64,000 bases of DNA from Flavobacteriales bacterium. GTDB taxonomy: Bacteria; Bacteroidota; Bacteroidia; Flavobacteriales_E; Vicingaceae. The stretch lies in NCBI GenBank assembly GCA_013359255.1, contig JABWCF010000001.1, positions 1-64,000 of the forward strand, written 5' to 3'. The notes beneath the pieces are model-generated. The model searched no databases and had not been told where the DNA came from. It saw nothing but the letters and a program-made list of their open reading frames with translations. Positions 46,347 to 56,864 of the stretch are shown one piece after another (position 1 is the stretch's first letter; each line of letters starts with the position of its first letter). The position numbers and the translations under genes are program-made.

Positions 46347-49300
46347 ATGATTAAAAAAACACTCTTTTCAATTTTTCTTTTTGCAAACCTTCATACGTTT
46401 TCTCAAAGTTATTCCATACACCTTCAATCCGGAGTTTTTACGCCACTCGAAAATAACTTATCTGATGTGCGGTGGAGTAACGATGAACTCGTAAACGGAT
46501 ACTATTACCGATTTATTCAGTTTAAAACCATTCCCACCAACGAAGAGAAAAAATATTTTGCAGCACATGGAATATTACTTTATAACTATGTTCCAAACCA
46601 TGTTTTTATGGCAGCTATTCCTGCGGCATTTGATATTACTCTATTAAACGAAGAGAATATACGCTCTGTTTTTACCATAGAAAAAAACAATAAACTCGAA
46701 GTTTCTCTTGCAAAGAAACAATATCCGAGTTGGGCTTTAAAAACCAATCAGAAAATTGAATTGGTGGCCATGCAACATCCCAATGTTTCGTACAACCAAG
46801 TAAGCCAATGGCTTAAAAACGAAGGAGCCGATGTGCAGCATTCTCTTGTTCGCCAAGGGGCACACCGCATCATAATAAAAATATCCGAAATAGAAAAATT
46901 CGCTTCTTTACCATATCTCTATTTTTTAGAGCCTTTCGATTCAAACCCCCAGCCCGATAACTTAGTAGGCCGATCTGATCACCGTTCTAACATGATAGCA
47001 ACCGATTACTTCGGTGGATTAAAATATGATGGTACCGGAGTAAAAATAGCATTGAATGATGATGGAGTAATTGGGCCTCACATAGATTATCAGGGAAGAT
47101 TAATAAGCCAATTTATTGGGTTTAACAACGGAAACCATGGCGATCATTGTGCCGGAACTATTATGAGTGCAGGAAACAGAAACCCATTGGGAAGAGGAAT
47201 GGCATTTGGTGCAGATTTAGGCGTGTACGGAGTTTCCGGAATGTTTTCTACTTTATATCAGGCCTTCGACAGTATTTACTCGCATTATAACAAATACGAG
47301 ATTCGCATTACTTCTACTTCTTACAGTAATGGAAACAATGCCGGGTATACCAGCTTAGCTCAGTTAATGGATATTCACATAAACGATATGCCCGATTTAA
47401 TGCATGTTTTTTCGGCCGGAAATGCAGGTACATCAGATTTTGGATATGGAGCAGGTGCCGGATGGGGAAATATAACCGGAGGGCACAAGCAAGCCAAGAA
47501 TGTTATAGCTACAGGAAATGTAACATATCAAGATGTATTAGCAAATTCCAGTAGCAGAGGCCCTGCACACGATGGTAGAATAAAGCCCGACATTTGTGCA
47601 GTAGGCACCAACGTACTTTCTACCATAGACCCACATAATTACGCTAACTTTACAGGAACATCTATGGCTTGCCCGGGTATTGCAGGAACATTTGGGCAAC
47701 TTTATCAGGCATACAAAGAGTTAAATAACGGAAATAATCCCTCTTCCGCATTAATAAAAGCATGTGTTCTAAATACCGGAGATGACCTTGGAAACCCAGG
47801 CCCAGACTACAAACACGGATGGGGAAGAATAAATGCCCGAAGAGCTTATTCTATCATTAAAAACAATCAATACCTCAGCGATATGGTTTCGCAGGGTGGC
47901 AATAAAACGCATATAATTACGGTACCTAATGGTGTTTCGGAATTAAGAGTAATGGTTTATTGGCACGATTTTAAGGCAACCGTTGGAGTTTCTAAAGCTC
48001 TGGTAAATAATTTAGATTTTACCTTAACCACCCCCTCTTCTCAAATAGTGCAACCTTGGGTGTTAGATCCTACGCCCAATCCTGTTAATTTAAACACACC
48101 GGCTGTGCAAGGAGTAGATACACTCAATAATGTAGAGCAAGTTACCATTGCAATTCCTGTGGCCGGAAATTATACGGTTACCATTAATGGAACTCAAGTG
48201 CCTCAAGGCCCTCAAGAATACTACGTGGTGTATGAATTTGTATCCGATGATTTGGTTTTAACATACCCTAGCGGAGGAGAATCTATTGTACCTAGTACTC
48301 AGGAAACCATTCGTTGGGACGCCTTTGGAAACTCCGGCACATTTACATTAGAGTATTCTGCAGATAATGGAAATACCTGGAATACCATTGCTTCAGGAAT
48401 AGCTGCTGCACAACGCTATTACGACTGGAATCCACCCACGGTAGTTACAGGTCAAGCTCTTGTGCGTGTTTCGCGAGGAGGAAAAAGCGATGTTTCCGAT
48501 GCGAACTTTTCAATTATTGGGGTGCCTGTTAATATTATGGTAGATTGGGTGTGTATAGATTCTATGCAGGTAAGCTACGGAGCAGTTTCCGGTGCAACAG
48601 GTTACGTTGTTAGCATTCTTGGAAATAAATACATGGATTCTGTGGGCTACTCTACCACTACTACCTGTGTAGTAAAAAATATAAATACATTTAATCCGGG
48701 TTGGTTTAGTGTACATGCTTTAGGAGTAAACAATTGTGTAGGCCGAAGAGCTATAGCTCAACCCTATCAGGCAGTTCCGTATAATTGTGTTATTCCTGAT
48801 GATATTGTTATGTTGAATCATTTAGCGCCAAACAATACTACTATATTAAACTGTCAACCTATTGCTAATCCTTTTCCCGTAAGTGTTACCATTAAAAATG
48901 CAGGTTTAACACCCGCTTCAAACATTGCCGTAAAATATTCTGTAAATGGAGGAAGCCCGGTTGCCGAAGCGTATGCAGGGCCAATAAATGCCAATACATC
49001 GGTAGTGTATAATTTTATTCAGGGAGCTACGCTTTCATCTCCGGGTAATTACGAATTTAAGGCATGGATAGAGCATCCGAACAACCAAATTCCTACAAAC
49101 GATACCACCACATGGTACAAAAATGTAGTTTCTCAGCCGGTGTTGCCGCTCCCCTTTTTAGAAGACTTTGAAACCTTTTCTTTATGTGCCACCACCTCTA
49201 ATTGCAGTGCCGAAAATTGTGCAATGAGTAATGGATGGCTTAACGAATTTAATAACTTAACCGATAGTATTGACTGGAGAACCAACAGCGGCCCAACTCC

Positions 49301-49967
49301 CACAACGAATACAGGTCCGGCAATGGATTATTTGCCCGGAATACTTGATGGAAAATATGTTTACATTGAAGCATCTTCTTGCTTTAATAAACCGGCTGAA
49401 TTAATTTCACCCTGTATAGAAATTGCAAGCAATTTAATTGCACCCGAAATGAGTTTTGCTTATCATATGTGGGGCTCTGATATGGGCGAATTGCATATCG
49501 ATGTTTTTTCCGATGGAGTTTGGAACAATGATGTGATTCCTGTTTTTACAGGCGATAAAGGAAACACATGGAATACAGCGGTGGTACCTCTATCAACATA
49601 CATAGGTAAAACTATCAACATTCGTTTTAGAGGAATTTCCGGTACAAATTTTAATAGCGATATGGCACTCGATGCCATTTCTATTACCGATCCGGTAGGT
49701 TTAAATAATCAGGAACCTGAGATGATAATGCAGCTTTTTCCAAACCCTACCAATGGTTTAATTAATTTGGAAATGTATCGTGTGCCTTCCGAAACAGAAA
49801 TTTTGATTACCGATGTAAACGGTAAAATCATTTATAAAAGTAAAATACAGCCGCAGGGAAACACTATAAATACCACAATAAATCTTCAAAATACTAATGC
49901 AGGTATCTATTTTATAACGATTAAAAATAACATTGGAATTATAAATAAAAAGGTATTAAAGTTTTAG
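46347..49967 (+). CDS. T9SS-secreted S8 (subtilisin-like) serine protease
   Basis: 1206 residues. Signal peptide (about 1-20), inhibitor-like prodomain (to about 205), then an S8 catalytic domain (about 215-515): Asp in ALNDDGV, His in NHGDHCAGT, oxyanion Asn in SAGNAGTS, and Ser in GTSMACPG. A P/Homo B-like domain (HIITVPNGVSELRVMVYW), Ig/fibronectin-like domains, a CARDB-like segment and a MAM-like domain follow, then a type A sorting domain (about 1130-1206, LFPNPTNGLINL). It is probably a secreted or surface protease for protein degradation. All catalytic residues are intact. Confidence 0.92.
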   Translation: MIKKTLFSIFLFANLHTFSQSYSIHLQSGVFTPLENNLSDVRWSNDELVNGYYYRFIQFKTIPTNEEKKYFAAHGILLYNYVPNHVFMAAIPAAFDITLLNEENIRSVFTIEKNNKLEVSLAKKQYPSWALKTNQKIELVAMQHPNVSYNQVSQWLKNEGADVQHSLVRQGAHRIIIKISEIEKFASLPYLYFLEPFDSNPQPDNLVGRSDHRSNMIATDYFGGLKYDGTGVKIALNDDGVIGPHIDYQGRLISQFIGFNNGNHGDHCAGTIMSAGNRNPLGRGMAFGADLGVYGVSGMFSTLYQAFDSIYSHYNKYEIRITSTSYSNGNNAGYTSLAQLMDIHINDMPDLMHVFSAGNAGTSDFGYGAGAGWGNITGGHKQAKNVIATGNVTYQDVLANSSSRGPAHDGRIKPDICAVGTNVLSTIDPHNYANFTGTSMACPGIAGTFGQLYQAYKELNNGNNPSSALIKACVLNTGDDLGNPGPDYKHGWGRINARRAYSIIKNNQYLSDMVSQGGNKTHIITVPNGVSELRVMVYWHDFKATVGVSKALVNNLDFTLTTPSSQIVQPWVLDPTPNPVNLNTPAVQGVDTLNNVEQVTIAIPVAGNYTVTINGTQVPQGPQEYYVVYEFVSDDLVLTYPSGGESIVPSTQETIRWDAFGNSGTFTLEYSADNGNTWNTIASGIAAAQRYYDWNPPTVVTGQALVRVSRGGKSDVSDANFSIIGVPVNIMVDWVCIDSMQVSYGAVSGATGYVVSILGNKYMDSVGYSTTTTCVVKNINTFNPGWFSVHALGVNNCVGRRAIAQPYQAVPYNCVIPDDIVMLNHLAPNNTTILNCQPIANPFPVSVTIKNAGLTPASNIAVKYSVNGGSPVAEAYAGPINANTSVVYNFIQGATLSSPGNYEFKAWIEHPNNQIPTNDTTTWYKNVVSQPVLPLPFLEDFETFSLCATTSNCSAENCAMSNGWLNEFNNLTDSIDWRTNSGPTPTTNTGPAMDYLPGILDGKYVYIEASSCFNKPAELISPCIEIASNLIAPEMSFAYHMWGSDMGELHIDVFSDGVWNNDVIPVFTGDKGNTWNTAVVPLSTYIGKTINIRFRGISGTNFNSDMALDAISITDPVGLNNQEPEMIMQLFPNPTNGLINLEMYRVPSETEILITDVNGKIIYKSKIQPQGNTINTTINLQNTNAGIYFITIKNNIGIINKKVLKF

Positions 49968-52640: not shown

Positions 52641-54740
52641 TTAAAAACTTATACGAATTTGTGCCTTTATTTCGGTTTTTGCATTTCCGTTTATTAAATC
52701 CAATCCGCTGCCAATTTCTGTTTGGTTGTTATAAAAAGTTTGGGCTATGCGAAACCAAAAATCAACATTGCGAATGCCACTATATTTAATAATTAAGTAG
52801 CTACGACTACCACGGTAATAATAGGCCGGAATAGAAAAAGCGTACAACACATCGTTTTCGTAGGCATAAATGCGAGAATCGTACGAATCAGTTTCAAATA
52901 AAGTATATCGGAAAGTAAAGGTAAATGGACTTTTGAGGCTTTGATAAATCACATCTTGATACAACATAACCCCTTTTTCATTTTTCTCATTTTCGCCCAG
53001 TTTGTATTGAAGTAGTTCTATACGACTTTTAAGTTTAAGGGCATCGGTTACTTTGTAAGAAATATCGTACCGATAATTTATTTGATTTTGTTCTACAGGG
53101 TATAAAATAGTGTTTTCGGGAGTTTGTGTGTTTCTGAATTTGCTGCGTTCACGTACTCTCACATACATATCCAATTTTTTGCTTGGGGTATAGTTTAATT
53201 GTACTAAATATTCACTTCCTTCGGAGGGTGAATTTACCTGATATTTTAACCATGGAAATTTATATGTATCGAAATAAGCGGTTATAGCAAAGTATTTAAA
53301 AGGGTTTGATTTGATACCCAGATATAACCCTTGTTCATTGTAAGGAATCGTATTTTCTGCGATGGCGTTGCTTAACAATGTACGGTAGTTTCTCTGAAAA
53401 TTTCTGTGTAAAACAGAAAAGGTTAGTTTCGGATCTAGCATCATAATAGCTCCGTTAATACTGGCAAATCCGGCATTGAGGCTATGCGATGTTTCACCAA
53501 ATAAATTAATATTACGGTAAACGTAATTATAGTCTACACCAAGGTTTGTAAGAGAATTGGTATCTAAGTTAAATTGGTTGTAGTAAGATAAATTGGGTTT
53601 GTAATTTGAGTTAAAGGTAGAGTGGATGATTGTAGTACCTATATTCAAATTTCTTCTTTTATAAGCGAAATGCCCTCCTGCATCGGTTCGTTGAACCGAA
53701 TTTTTATCGGCTATTTCTCCGGGTGTTCTGTGAAATCCGCTTTGCTGAAAAGAGGTAATGGTTGTTACATCTTGGTCAACCGCAAAACTGGTATCGGGTT
53801 CCTGCACATTGGCATCTATTTTTTTTGAAGAATAGAATGCTGTAAGTTCAATATTATTAAATTGCCATGAGGAGCCCGCTCCTCTTAAAAAGCGATTTTC
53901 ATCAACTGAACTGTAAGGTAAAAGCCCGGTAGCGTTTCTTTTTATTAGTAAAATATCGACACCTTTTCCGAAAGCCAAACCCGACCAAAGCGTTAAACCT
54001 TGACCAAATTGAGCTTGATAATCGCCAATGGCAAGTTGTTTCATTTTGCCACGATTTCGTATAAAAAAGTGAGCCGAATAAAAATCGAATCCATTTTTCT
54101 GGGTTCCTTTAAGGAATTCTTCTCCAGGATCTTTTTCTGCTGTAATGCCTATGCTTAGTGTATTTCCGTAGGTGTAACGATACCGTGTAAAGAGGCGGGC
54201 TTTATTTCCAAGGTAACGAGAATTGGGTTTTAAAGCAAGCAAGGAATCTTCTATAGGGGCATATCCGGCTTGTTTTTCCAGTATTTGTTGGTAGCGTATA
54301 AAATAGCTGTGTTTTCCGTTGTTAAGCAACTCGTTCCATGATAGGCGGGCTTGTTCGGTAATGTACGAAATTTTAACAAAGGGTTTAATCAGTAAAATAG
54401 TTTCTAAAGTAAAACCTTCTATACTTTGCAATTCTTCCAATGCCATTAGTTTACCGTGCAAACGAATATGCTCCAACAAATAATTGATTTGTATTTCGTT
54501 TAGCAAAGAAAGGTCTTGTAATTCTTGTTTGTTGGTGTTATTTAAATTGATGGGGTTATCAAAAAAATACAAAAAACGGTCGAAAAGAGTAGAGTAATCC
54601 TCTTCGGTATCCTCAGAATTTTCGAGTAAAAATTCGATTCGTTTTTCAATAATTAAATTTTTGTCTGCTTCGTTTTTTTGAGCCGATAATTGGGTAGTTG
54701 CTACCCAAAACAGAAAAATATATAGTGTAAGTTTCTTCAC
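52641..54740 (-). CDS. HhH-domain/outer-membrane beta-barrel protein of unknown function
   Basis: 699 residues. Signal peptide (about 1-20), a ComEA-like helix-hairpin-helix region (about 55-125; INLNNTNKQELQDLSLL, ALEELQSIEGF), then a long aromatic, strand-rich region (about 140-699) ending AQIRISF, as in an outer-membrane barrel. HhH repeats normally bind DNA or act as protein adaptors. Joined to a barrel they suggest a surface pore or uptake role, but this is inference. The ATG overlaps the stop of the 54737-55552 barrel gene by four bases. The convergent PorE-like stop is two bases away. Confidence 0.78.
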   Translation of the reverse strand: MKKLTLYIFLFWVATTQLSAQKNEADKNLIIEKRIEFLLENSEDTEEDYSTLFDRFLYFFDNPINLNNTNKQELQDLSLLNEIQINYLLEHIRLHGKLMALEELQSIEGFTLETILLIKPFVKISYITEQARLSWNELLNNGKHSYFIRYQQILEKQAGYAPIEDSLLALKPNSRYLGNKARLFTRYRYTYGNTLSIGITAEKDPGEEFLKGTQKNGFDFYSAHFFIRNRGKMKQLAIGDYQAQFGQGLTLWSGLAFGKGVDILLIKRNATGLLPYSSVDENRFLRGAGSSWQFNNIELTAFYSSKKIDANVQEPDTSFAVDQDVTTITSFQQSGFHRTPGEIADKNSVQRTDAGGHFAYKRRNLNIGTTIIHSTFNSNYKPNLSYYNQFNLDTNSLTNLGVDYNYVYRNINLFGETSHSLNAGFASINGAIMMLDPKLTFSVLHRNFQRNYRTLLSNAIAENTIPYNEQGLYLGIKSNPFKYFAITAYFDTYKFPWLKYQVNSPSEGSEYLVQLNYTPSKKLDMYVRVRERSKFRNTQTPENTILYPVEQNQINYRYDISYKVTDALKLKSRIELLQYKLGENEKNEKGVMLYQDVIYQSLKSPFTFTFRYTLFETDSYDSRIYAYENDVLYAFSIPAYYYRGSRSYLIIKYSGIRNVDFWFRIAQTFYNNQTEIGSGLDLINGNAKTEIKAQIRISF

Positions 54741-55552
54741 TTAAAAGGTTGGTACGCCAATGAAACAGCAGGAGAAAAACCAAGTTTAGAATGATATCCT
54801 GTGGCAATATCAATTCTAAGTTCCTTGGTTTGTATGCCCAAGCCAAAGTTGTTTTGGGTTGGGTTGGTGGCTATTCCCATTCTAAAATATAAAATAGGAA
54901 TGGGGTGGTATTCTATTCCCGATTTTACTATGGGTTTTTCGTAAATATTTTTATCTATATCGGCAGCCAATAGCACTTTTTCCGAAAAGGCGTACATTAA
55001 CCCAATTCGCATAATAGTAGGAATTTTTTCGTTGTTGTAATCGGACAATTTGGTGCGTGTGGGGTTGTATAAGTGAGTGGCTAAAGTAAGTTCGTTGCTT
55101 AGTTTTGCCATAATACCTACTGCTCCGGTGAATGACTGGTGTTTGCCATAATTTTCGCCCAATTGTGTGCTAACGTAATTTAGCTGAATACCGGCAGAAA
55201 ATTTTTCACTGAATCTTTGTCCGTAAGAAATACCTGCTTTATTTTCGTTGTATAAATTAAATCCATACGAGGAAACACTTATTCCTAAAGCCCCTGATTT
55301 TATAGGGTATGCAAAGGCTCCAGCCTTAATACTCATTTCTTTTATACCAAAACGATTTTCGTAATACAGGCCTCCGCCTGCATCTTTTAAAAATCCGAGC
55401 CCTGCCTGATTGTTCTCTGCACTCCAAAAGTCCGATAAACTTACCGAAGCCCCACCCATACCAAGGGAACGAGCGCCTAATAAATAAAAAGAATTGCCGG
55501 CAAATAGAGTACGAGCACTAAAAAAGAGCACTAAAAAATATATTTTTTTCAT
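54737..55552 (-). CDS. PorV/PorQ-like outer-membrane beta-barrel protein
   Basis: 271 residues with signal peptide (MKKIYFLVLFFSARTLFA). The N-terminal GARSLGMGGASVSLSDFWSAENNQAGL matches the PorV/PorQ/FadL-like barrel families, in which the N-terminus plugs the pore; the rest is alternating strands ending VSLAYQPFK. It is shorter than PorV proper. It is first in a coupled pair with the HhH/barrel gene, so the two products may form one assembly (inference). Confidence 0.65.
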   Translation of the reverse strand: MKKIYFLVLFFSARTLFAGNSFYLLGARSLGMGGASVSLSDFWSAENNQAGLGFLKDAGGGLYYENRFGIKEMSIKAGAFAYPIKSGALGISVSSYGFNLYNENKAGISYGQRFSEKFSAGIQLNYVSTQLGENYGKHQSFTGAVGIMAKLSNELTLATHLYNPTRTKLSDYNNEKIPTIMRIGLMYAFSEKVLLAADIDKNIYEKPIVKSGIEYHPIPILYFRMGIATNPTQNNFGLGIQTKELRIDIATGYHSKLGFSPAVSLAYQPFK

Positions 55553-56316: not shown

Positions 56317-56333
56317 AATGTTCTTTAAAATAT

Positions 56334-56726
56334 GGGGCCGACAAGGTTTTGACAGCAAGATCGGGTAGGTAAATAAGCATGTAGGGCGTTGTGTGTTTGC
56401 CCTTTAAAACAATGCACAAGCCATAACTGGCGAAACAAATTACGCACTCGCTGCTTAATCGCTAAGCGATAAAAGCTTAATTCTACACGAATAATAGTAG
56501 TGTGAACGAGTATCTCGCGGGGGTTTTGTTTGGTAACGCCCGAATACGAGGTATCAAATTCCGAACTAATCGGTAAACGGCCTTGATTTATCGGTGAAAC
56601 TAAAAAGGCTAAGCTGTAATTAGGCTGCTTTTGGCCGGCTTGCAGTCGAAAATCAATTAAAAGATAAGCATGTAGAAAGTTTATTTGCTCCTTGTTTGGA
56701 CGTGGGTTCGAATCCCACCGGTTCCA
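56334..56726 (+). ncRNA. ssrA: Transfer-messenger RNA (tmRNA)
   Basis: About 393 bases. The 5' end GGGGCCG pairs with 3' CGGTTCC (56719-56725) as the tRNA-like acceptor, with two G-U pairs; a T-arm GTGGGTTCGAATCCCAC (56702-56718) precedes it. CCA is not encoded (ACAG follows). The tag frame reads GGC GAA ACA AAT TAC GCA CTC GCT GCT TAA at 56429-56458, giving tag (A)GETNYALAA. The product rescues ribosomes stalled without a stop codon and marks the peptide for proteolysis. Open frames across this interval are not genes. Confidence 0.96.
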
Positions 56727-56739
56727 CAGAAACACCTTA

Positions 56740-56777
56740 AACGAAAAAAGCTCCGGAATTCCGGAGCTTTTTTCGTT
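56740..56777. terminator. Bidirectional terminator between tmRNA and tRNA-Ser
   Basis: AACGAAAAAAGCTCCGG pairs perfectly with CCGGAGCTTTTTTCGTT around an AATT loop, with A and T runs on either side. It can end the plus-strand tmRNA and the minus-strand tRNA. Confidence 0.92.
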
Positions 56778-56779
56778 AG

Positions 56780-56864
56780 CGGAGAGGGAGGGATTCGAAC
56801 CCCCGGACCTATTACAGTCAACTGTTTTCAAGACAGCCGCAATCGACCACTCTGCCACCTCTCC
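56780..56864 (-). tRNA. tRNA-Ser (UGA anticodon)
   Basis: 85 bases on the minus strand. The acceptor GGAGAGG pairs with CCTCTCC, and the anticodon loop CTTGAAA sits in a GCTGT/ACAGT stem, giving anticodon TGA. A long variable arm and the T-arm GGGGGTTCGAATCCC are as expected for class II serine tRNA. CCA is not encoded. It is monocistronic and ends at the shared terminator. Confidence 0.97.

Follow-up and report, generated by a model that had tools for sequence, protein, structure and literature searches.

What is the role of a pair of overlapping genes encoding two outer-membrane barrels, one of which carries near its N-terminus a helix-hairpin-helix (HhH) domain of the type found in the competence protein ComEA? 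The pair lies on the minus strand of the window, by which we mean the whole 64,000-nucleotide stretch of Flavobacteriales DNA analysed here, and it joins ordinary parts, a FadL-type barrel and a ComEA-type domain, in a widespread combination of unassigned role. Both open reading frames lie where the first-pass annotation had placed them, with the 4-base overlap GTGA, and the signal peptide (putative, by reading), the HhH region and a strand-rich remainder are indeed all parts of one 699-aa protein. The features are as follows.

54737..55552, minus strand: ORF of the PorV/FadL-like outer-membrane barrel gene, 271 aa, first of the pair
52641..54740, minus strand: ORF of the HhH-barrel gene, 699 aa, GTG start
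54737..54740, minus strand: 4-base GTGA overlap of both genes, from the sequence
54678..54740, minus strand: putative signal peptide of the HhH-barrel protein, residues 1-21 (ending LSAQ), read from the translation
54363..54557, minus strand: degenerate (HhH)2 domain, residues 62-126, from matches to HHH_3 and to a ComEA profile; helical in the AlphaFold2 model
52647..54314, minus strand: predicted 24-strand beta-barrel, residues 143-698, whose inferred lumen is conserved and basic, from the AlphaFold2 model and fold comparison

The GTGA overlap suggests that translation of the PorV-like and HhH-barrel genes is coupled. A PHROG search gave no match for the pair, and the titles, abstract openings and term counts of open-licence PMC literature hold no description of a PorV-like/HhH-barrel pair. 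An iron-stimulon table does contain entries for 'PorV/PorQ' and 'helix-hairpin-helix' genes, matched here by annotation wording only and from the excerpted part of that paper (PMC10434189).

The HhH-barrel protein was matched in 57 of 60 relatives and its 271-aa partner in 52 of the 60. Of 120 loci, a set that includes duplicates and, among its named records, Cryomorpha ignava and Taishania pollutisoli, 112 have the PorV-like gene immediately upstream in the same orientation, so the two genes are conserved together, a point that the first-pass annotation had left open; of 115 same-strand pairs, 81 have an intergenic gap between -4 and +10 bases. The non-adjacent exceptions include contig ends and ORF-calling artefacts, and also two loci (L069 and L071) at which no PorV-like partner was found. 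Among the 113 loci with differing protein ends the partner is a neighbour in 108 and the next commonest gene (PurE-like by reading) in 22, and because the partner far outranks every other neighbour we take the pair to be the conserved unit. The barrel is usually present in a single copy per genome, as in the window genome, where there is one match, and it is spread across the phylum. Residue comparisons were made with 41 loci (the window and L035-L074), of which 38 enter the barrel alignment (A1) and 37 the partner alignment (A2); L047 and L050, from the genus of L037, were omitted from both, L062, whose frame is long and overlapping, was left out of A1, and A2 is without L069 and L071, which had no PorV-like match.

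Two irregularities were seen among these genomes. Genus g24 of family f9 (G044, G294, G320, G341 and others) often has two barrel matches per genome, with long open frames of 754-1228 aa around the barrel, and in G044 the frame covers the PorV-like gene. Two records with titles from other groups, the complete Glaciecola amylolytica genome CP034120.1 (L152) and the Verrucomicrobia record PAVT01000076.1 (L095), contain HhH-barrel genes typical of Bacteroidota, and their titles are probably wrong.

Barrels are predicted by AlphaFold2 for both proteins, which removes the first-pass reservation that none might be found. The model of the 271-aa partner (pLDDT 90.6) has a FadL-type fold, with Z scores of 32.5 to FadL and 30.7 to PorV over about 250 residues. 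Its match to the PorV family model NF033709 PorV_fam (E 3.3e-14, 53.2 bits) lies below the curated cut-off of 90 bits, and 34 of the 37 aligned PorV-like members match the same model at E ≤ 0.001. PorV is the auxiliary barrel of SprA, the translocon of the type IX secretion system (T9SS), and BamG that of the BAM complex of Bacteroidota; the pair resembles both arrangements in placing a FadL-fold auxiliary barrel beside a larger one, and differs in that the window partner has merely 271 aa, scores below the PorV/PorQ cut-off and is encoded by a gene that overlaps the HhH-barrel gene.

The model of the larger protein (mean pLDDT 85.7) has 24 long strands over residues 143-698, counted from the listed strands. 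By VIA-align it resembles AlgE (Z 16.3) and FimD/PapC (about 15), with OprD-type porins also near, and the top row in Foldseek is 6r2q_B, from an Mtr complex (E 4.2e-12, TM about 0.4); since these are generic large barrels, function cannot be read from the fold matches. FimD-type ushers are 24-strand barrels through which folded pilins pass, and by analogy a barrel of 24 strands might admit double-stranded DNA. When residues were assigned to the lumen by their alternation along the predicted strands, the inferred lumen had a net charge of +10.7 and the outward-facing positions +5.2, values that stand without a control barrel for comparison. At lumen positions conserved in at least 85% of rows, 17 are K or R as against 8 that are D or E.

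The HhH region of the larger protein is degenerate. Residues 63-122 match Pfam HHH_3 with E 0.0038 and 17.7 bits, which for the window protein alone is below the cut-off of 27 bits. We nonetheless regard the domain as real because 33 of 38 family members, each searched singly, match HHH_3 at E ≤ 0.01 and the family profile matches solved ComEA structures at 7.2e-8, so that an HHH_3-type (HhH)2 domain is shared with ComEA. The DNA-binding motif of HhH domains is the GIG hairpin, and in hairpin 1 of the barrel protein the corresponding GxG is absent from all 38 aligned members, with the first glycine retained in one; the mean net charge of the domain across these members is -3. The window genome also encodes a separate ComEA-like protein (G000:C20) with three strongly matching HHH_3 stretches; one of its domains retains GIG, and the three are charged +8, +1 and +5. 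With its GIG hairpin lost and its charge acidic, against a positively charged ComEA-like protein, the HhH of the barrel is probably not the DNA receptor, and the first-pass suggestion that it touches DNA itself finds no support in the residues. As judged from these residues, the domain is more likely a plug or docking module than a DNA binder, and we infer that it may sit as an acidic plug within a basic pore.

The barrel protein was also considered as the ComEA of this organism, a candidate that is ruled out by the separate triple-HhH protein with its strong HHH_3 matches. ComEA has DNA-binding GIG hairpins and no outer-membrane barrel, whereas in the window protein the hairpin is lost and a barrel is appended to the domain.

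A second combination of these parts occurs in families f31, f34 and f47, where single ORFs of 371-404 aa consist of a PorV-like barrel followed by a C-terminal HhH domain. This was seen at 10 of 10 loci (L185-L194), a biased rate because the loci were selected for long PorV-like open frames. The fusions in three families show that the HhH domain, the PorV-like barrel and the large barrel recur together. Several hairpins in these fusion ORFs are nearer to canonical (PGI, PGM) than is the HhH of the large barrel.

The strongest indication of function is the gene order in one large family of Bacteroidia, f25, in which the barrel gene directly precedes that for ComEC, the inner-membrane DNA importer that delivers single strands to the cytoplasm. 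We searched 81 genomes of this family, of which 69 have a barrel match at E ≤ 1e-18, and fetched all 69 loci. In 65 of the 69 the ComEC gene lies downstream of the barrel and on its strand, 52 of these with a gap estimated at no more than 40 bases, and every one of the 20 barrel-bearing genera has the link in one or more genomes. The four misses all belong to genus g117, in which four of seven barrel genomes lack an adjoining ComEC and three have it; the searched genomes of two further genera, g54 and g131, contain no barrel. Of 67 f25 loci compared for the PorV-like gene, 55 have it upstream of the barrel at a distance of 300 bases or less, and in the other 12 it is non-adjacent or not found; PorV-like, barrel and ComEC genes stand in a row in G136 and G178, and barrel and ComEC in G061. 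As a control for general conservation of gene order, 44 f25 loci with long flanks were compared; the ComEC cluster is present in 40 of them and the PorV-like cluster in 34, and the commonest gene other than these and the barrel (MerR-like by reading) reaches 11. Three of the barrel-linked ComEC proteins were confirmed by Pfam, and the f25 barrels are homologous to the window protein, with 37-38% identity in two (681 and 664 columns) and 34% in a third.

Outside f25, ComEC was not found in the flanks of the loci (1.5 to about 10 kb), nor at loci of f30, f88, f15 and f81, nor anywhere in the window's own 64 kb. The gene order thus rests on one family, and linkage to this core gene of natural transformation is a property of f25 and not of the window locus. 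ComEC (PF03772) itself is present in all 138 genomes of a phylum-wide sample, and as 49 of 256 genomes of the class have no barrel match at E ≤ 1e-18, ComEC does not depend on the barrel everywhere. The association with com genes that the first-pass annotation put forward as a check is seen in gene position, in f25. Its wider idea of an envelope device connected with DNA is supported by the ComEC order and the second set of HhH fusions, whereas contact between DNA and the HhH is not supported by the residues.

The basic inferred lumen and the resemblance to the alginate exporter AlgE and to OprD-type porins would also be expected of a nutrient porin, an importer or exporter of some polyanionic solute whose position beside ComEC in one family is a matter of history. 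We think this unlikely: unlike substrate-specific porins the barrel is usually single-copy and phylum-wide, its linkage to ComEC extends over 20 genera and is far above background gene order, and the barrel protein bears a ComEA-type domain.

A further alternative makes the pair an accessory of the T9SS, in which the PorV-like protein would do what PorV does and the HhH barrel would be a second barrel for export or anchoring. NF033709 matches put the partner in the PorV/PorQ superfamily, it has a PorV-like fold, and the window genome has SprA. We examined SprA in the 138 phylum genomes (each at least 90% complete, barrel cut-off E ≤ 1e-18). SprA is present in 109, and the barrel is present in all 29 that lack SprA; conversely, the 29 genomes with no barrel match all have SprA, although a few of them, such as G153, may hold a diverged copy of the barrel. 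Barrel and SprA thus occur independently, and we reject the T9SS as the main role; a T9SS component proper would be expected only alongside SprA, and the 29 SprA-less genomes argue against one. Where SprA is lacking, the PorV-like gene is either unlinked or was not found, which speaks for an auxiliary T9SS function, but overall we consider such a function very improbable.

Of the 29 SprA-less genomes, 28 belong to family f36, and all 28 carry the FMO bacteriochlorophyll protein, by which we identify f36 as green sulfur bacteria; FMO is also found in six genomes of f34 and f47. A PorV-like match of any kind is present in 7 of the 28, and in one of the green sulfur genomes (G119) some 54 kb separate an isolated PorV-like gene from the barrel. 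The model species of the green sulfur bacteria is naturally transformable. Among the genomes lacking the barrel, G083 has a SprA very close to that of F. johnsoniae (4870 bits, 2361 residues), which places its family, f27, in Flavobacteriaceae.

Because it directly precedes the ComEC gene in one large family, the pair may be the missing outer DNA gate, and we consider it reasonably probable that it serves as the outer-membrane gate of ComEC-dependent DNA uptake in Bacteroidota. DNA would cross the outer membrane through the pore of the 24-strand barrel, along an inner wall predicted to present conserved arginines and lysines. On the periplasmic side the acidic N-terminal HhH domain would either plug the pore or offer a docking site to the triple-HhH, ComEA-like protein, and the FadL-fold partner would serve the large barrel as a scaffold or side gate, in the manner of PorV with SprA and of BamG within BAM. 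The DNA would then be handed to the ComEA-like protein and ComEC. The inward direction, like the passage of DNA and the plug, is inferred, and the window copy, which has no adjoining ComEC, would play the same role.

The usual entry point of DNA through the outer membrane in Gram-negative transformation is the PilQ secretin with a type IV pilus or pseudopilus. The proposed gate would share with PilQ the task of bringing DNA through the outer membrane so that it reaches ComEA and ComEC, and differs in being a single 24-strand barrel with a FadL-type partner rather than a multimeric secretin; the searches reported here covered genes other than those of pili. More tentatively, Bacteroidota and green sulfur bacteria may share a gate that is free of secretin and pilus altogether, composed of the 24-strand barrel, its FadL-fold companion and an acidic HhH plug that DNA displaces, and coupled to ComEA and ComEC. 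If this is true, DNA would have a second, widespread way into the cell, in part superseded in Flavobacteriaceae by a barrel linked to DUF5689.

That other barrel is known from Riemerella anatipestifer, where a transposon screen reports that transformation requires the outer-membrane protein RA0C_RS04915 and RS04920, the DUF5689 protein encoded next to it; insertions in RS04915 abolish transformation, ComEC, DprA, ComF, RecA, a three-HhH protein and a DUF1343 protein are also needed, and the machinery is termed unique (PMC8459023). The triple-HhH protein of the window genome resembles RA0C_RS02645, which is said to have three HhH domains, a likeness drawn from description only. In a report sharing many authors with the Riemerella screen, R. 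columbina is competent and F. johnsoniae is not under the same conditions, according to the portion of the text available (PMC7965970). RA0C_RS04915/RS04920 and the window pair, in its proposed role, are alike as paired outer-membrane systems tied to ComEC-dependent transformation, and they differ in that RS04915 is of another family, with a CarboxypepD_reg N-terminus, about 900 aa and no HhH found. A Pfam search found neither CarboxypepD_reg nor DUF5689 in the window pair, which is thus not a CarboxypepD_reg barrel with a DUF5689 partner, and the window genome has no DUF5689 match.

We compared the distribution of the two systems in the class. DUF5689 is present in 26 of 49 genomes lacking the barrel and in 41 of 207 bearing it (Fisher p 7e-6, uncorrected for relatedness). 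In a smaller sample it had been present in 17 of 19 barrel-negative and 3 of 15 barrel-positive genomes, and with the contrast weakened in the larger one, strict mutual exclusion was discarded. The partial relation that is left fits, if loosely, two DNA-uptake systems that overlap in use. The Riemerella arrangement recurs, with a similar outer-membrane protein directly upstream of the DUF5689 gene in 10 of 12 fetched loci with strong DUF5689 matches. Adjoining this pair, in divergent orientation, is a predicted endonuclease/exonuclease/phosphatase (EEP) gene in 9 of the 12 loci (L208, L209, L210, L212, L213, L215, L216, L217 and L218; PF19580 in L215), and such a nuclease might process DNA before the barrel takes it up.

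A nuclease next to uptake genes is also what might be found if DNA were imported chiefly as a source of phosphate or nucleosides and not for transformation, and this reading of the window pair draws on the same gene evidence as the transformation gate. ComEC passes single strands into the cytoplasm, which argues against it, and we hold import for nutrition to be distinctly unlikely.

The proposed DNA gate bears on a gap in what is described for competent members of the phylum. In P. gingivalis, ComEA and ComEC are essential and the route of DNA to the periplasm is stated, in the excerpted text, to be unclear (PMC11532111). For naturally competent Bacteroidota the pair supplies a testable candidate for the step by which DNA gets through the outer membrane, and this step bears on the spread of genes, resistance genes included, in a major phylum of the gut, the mouth and the environment.

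Two other features of the window were noted near the pair. An ORF of 177 aa at 56325-56858 on the minus strand is probably spurious, as it sits on the tmRNA gene (56334-56727, plus strand) and a tRNA-Ser gene (56779-56864, minus strand). On the plus strand, 46347-49967 encodes a subtilase-like protein of 1206 aa, the end of which, by reading, resembles a T9SS type-A sorting domain.
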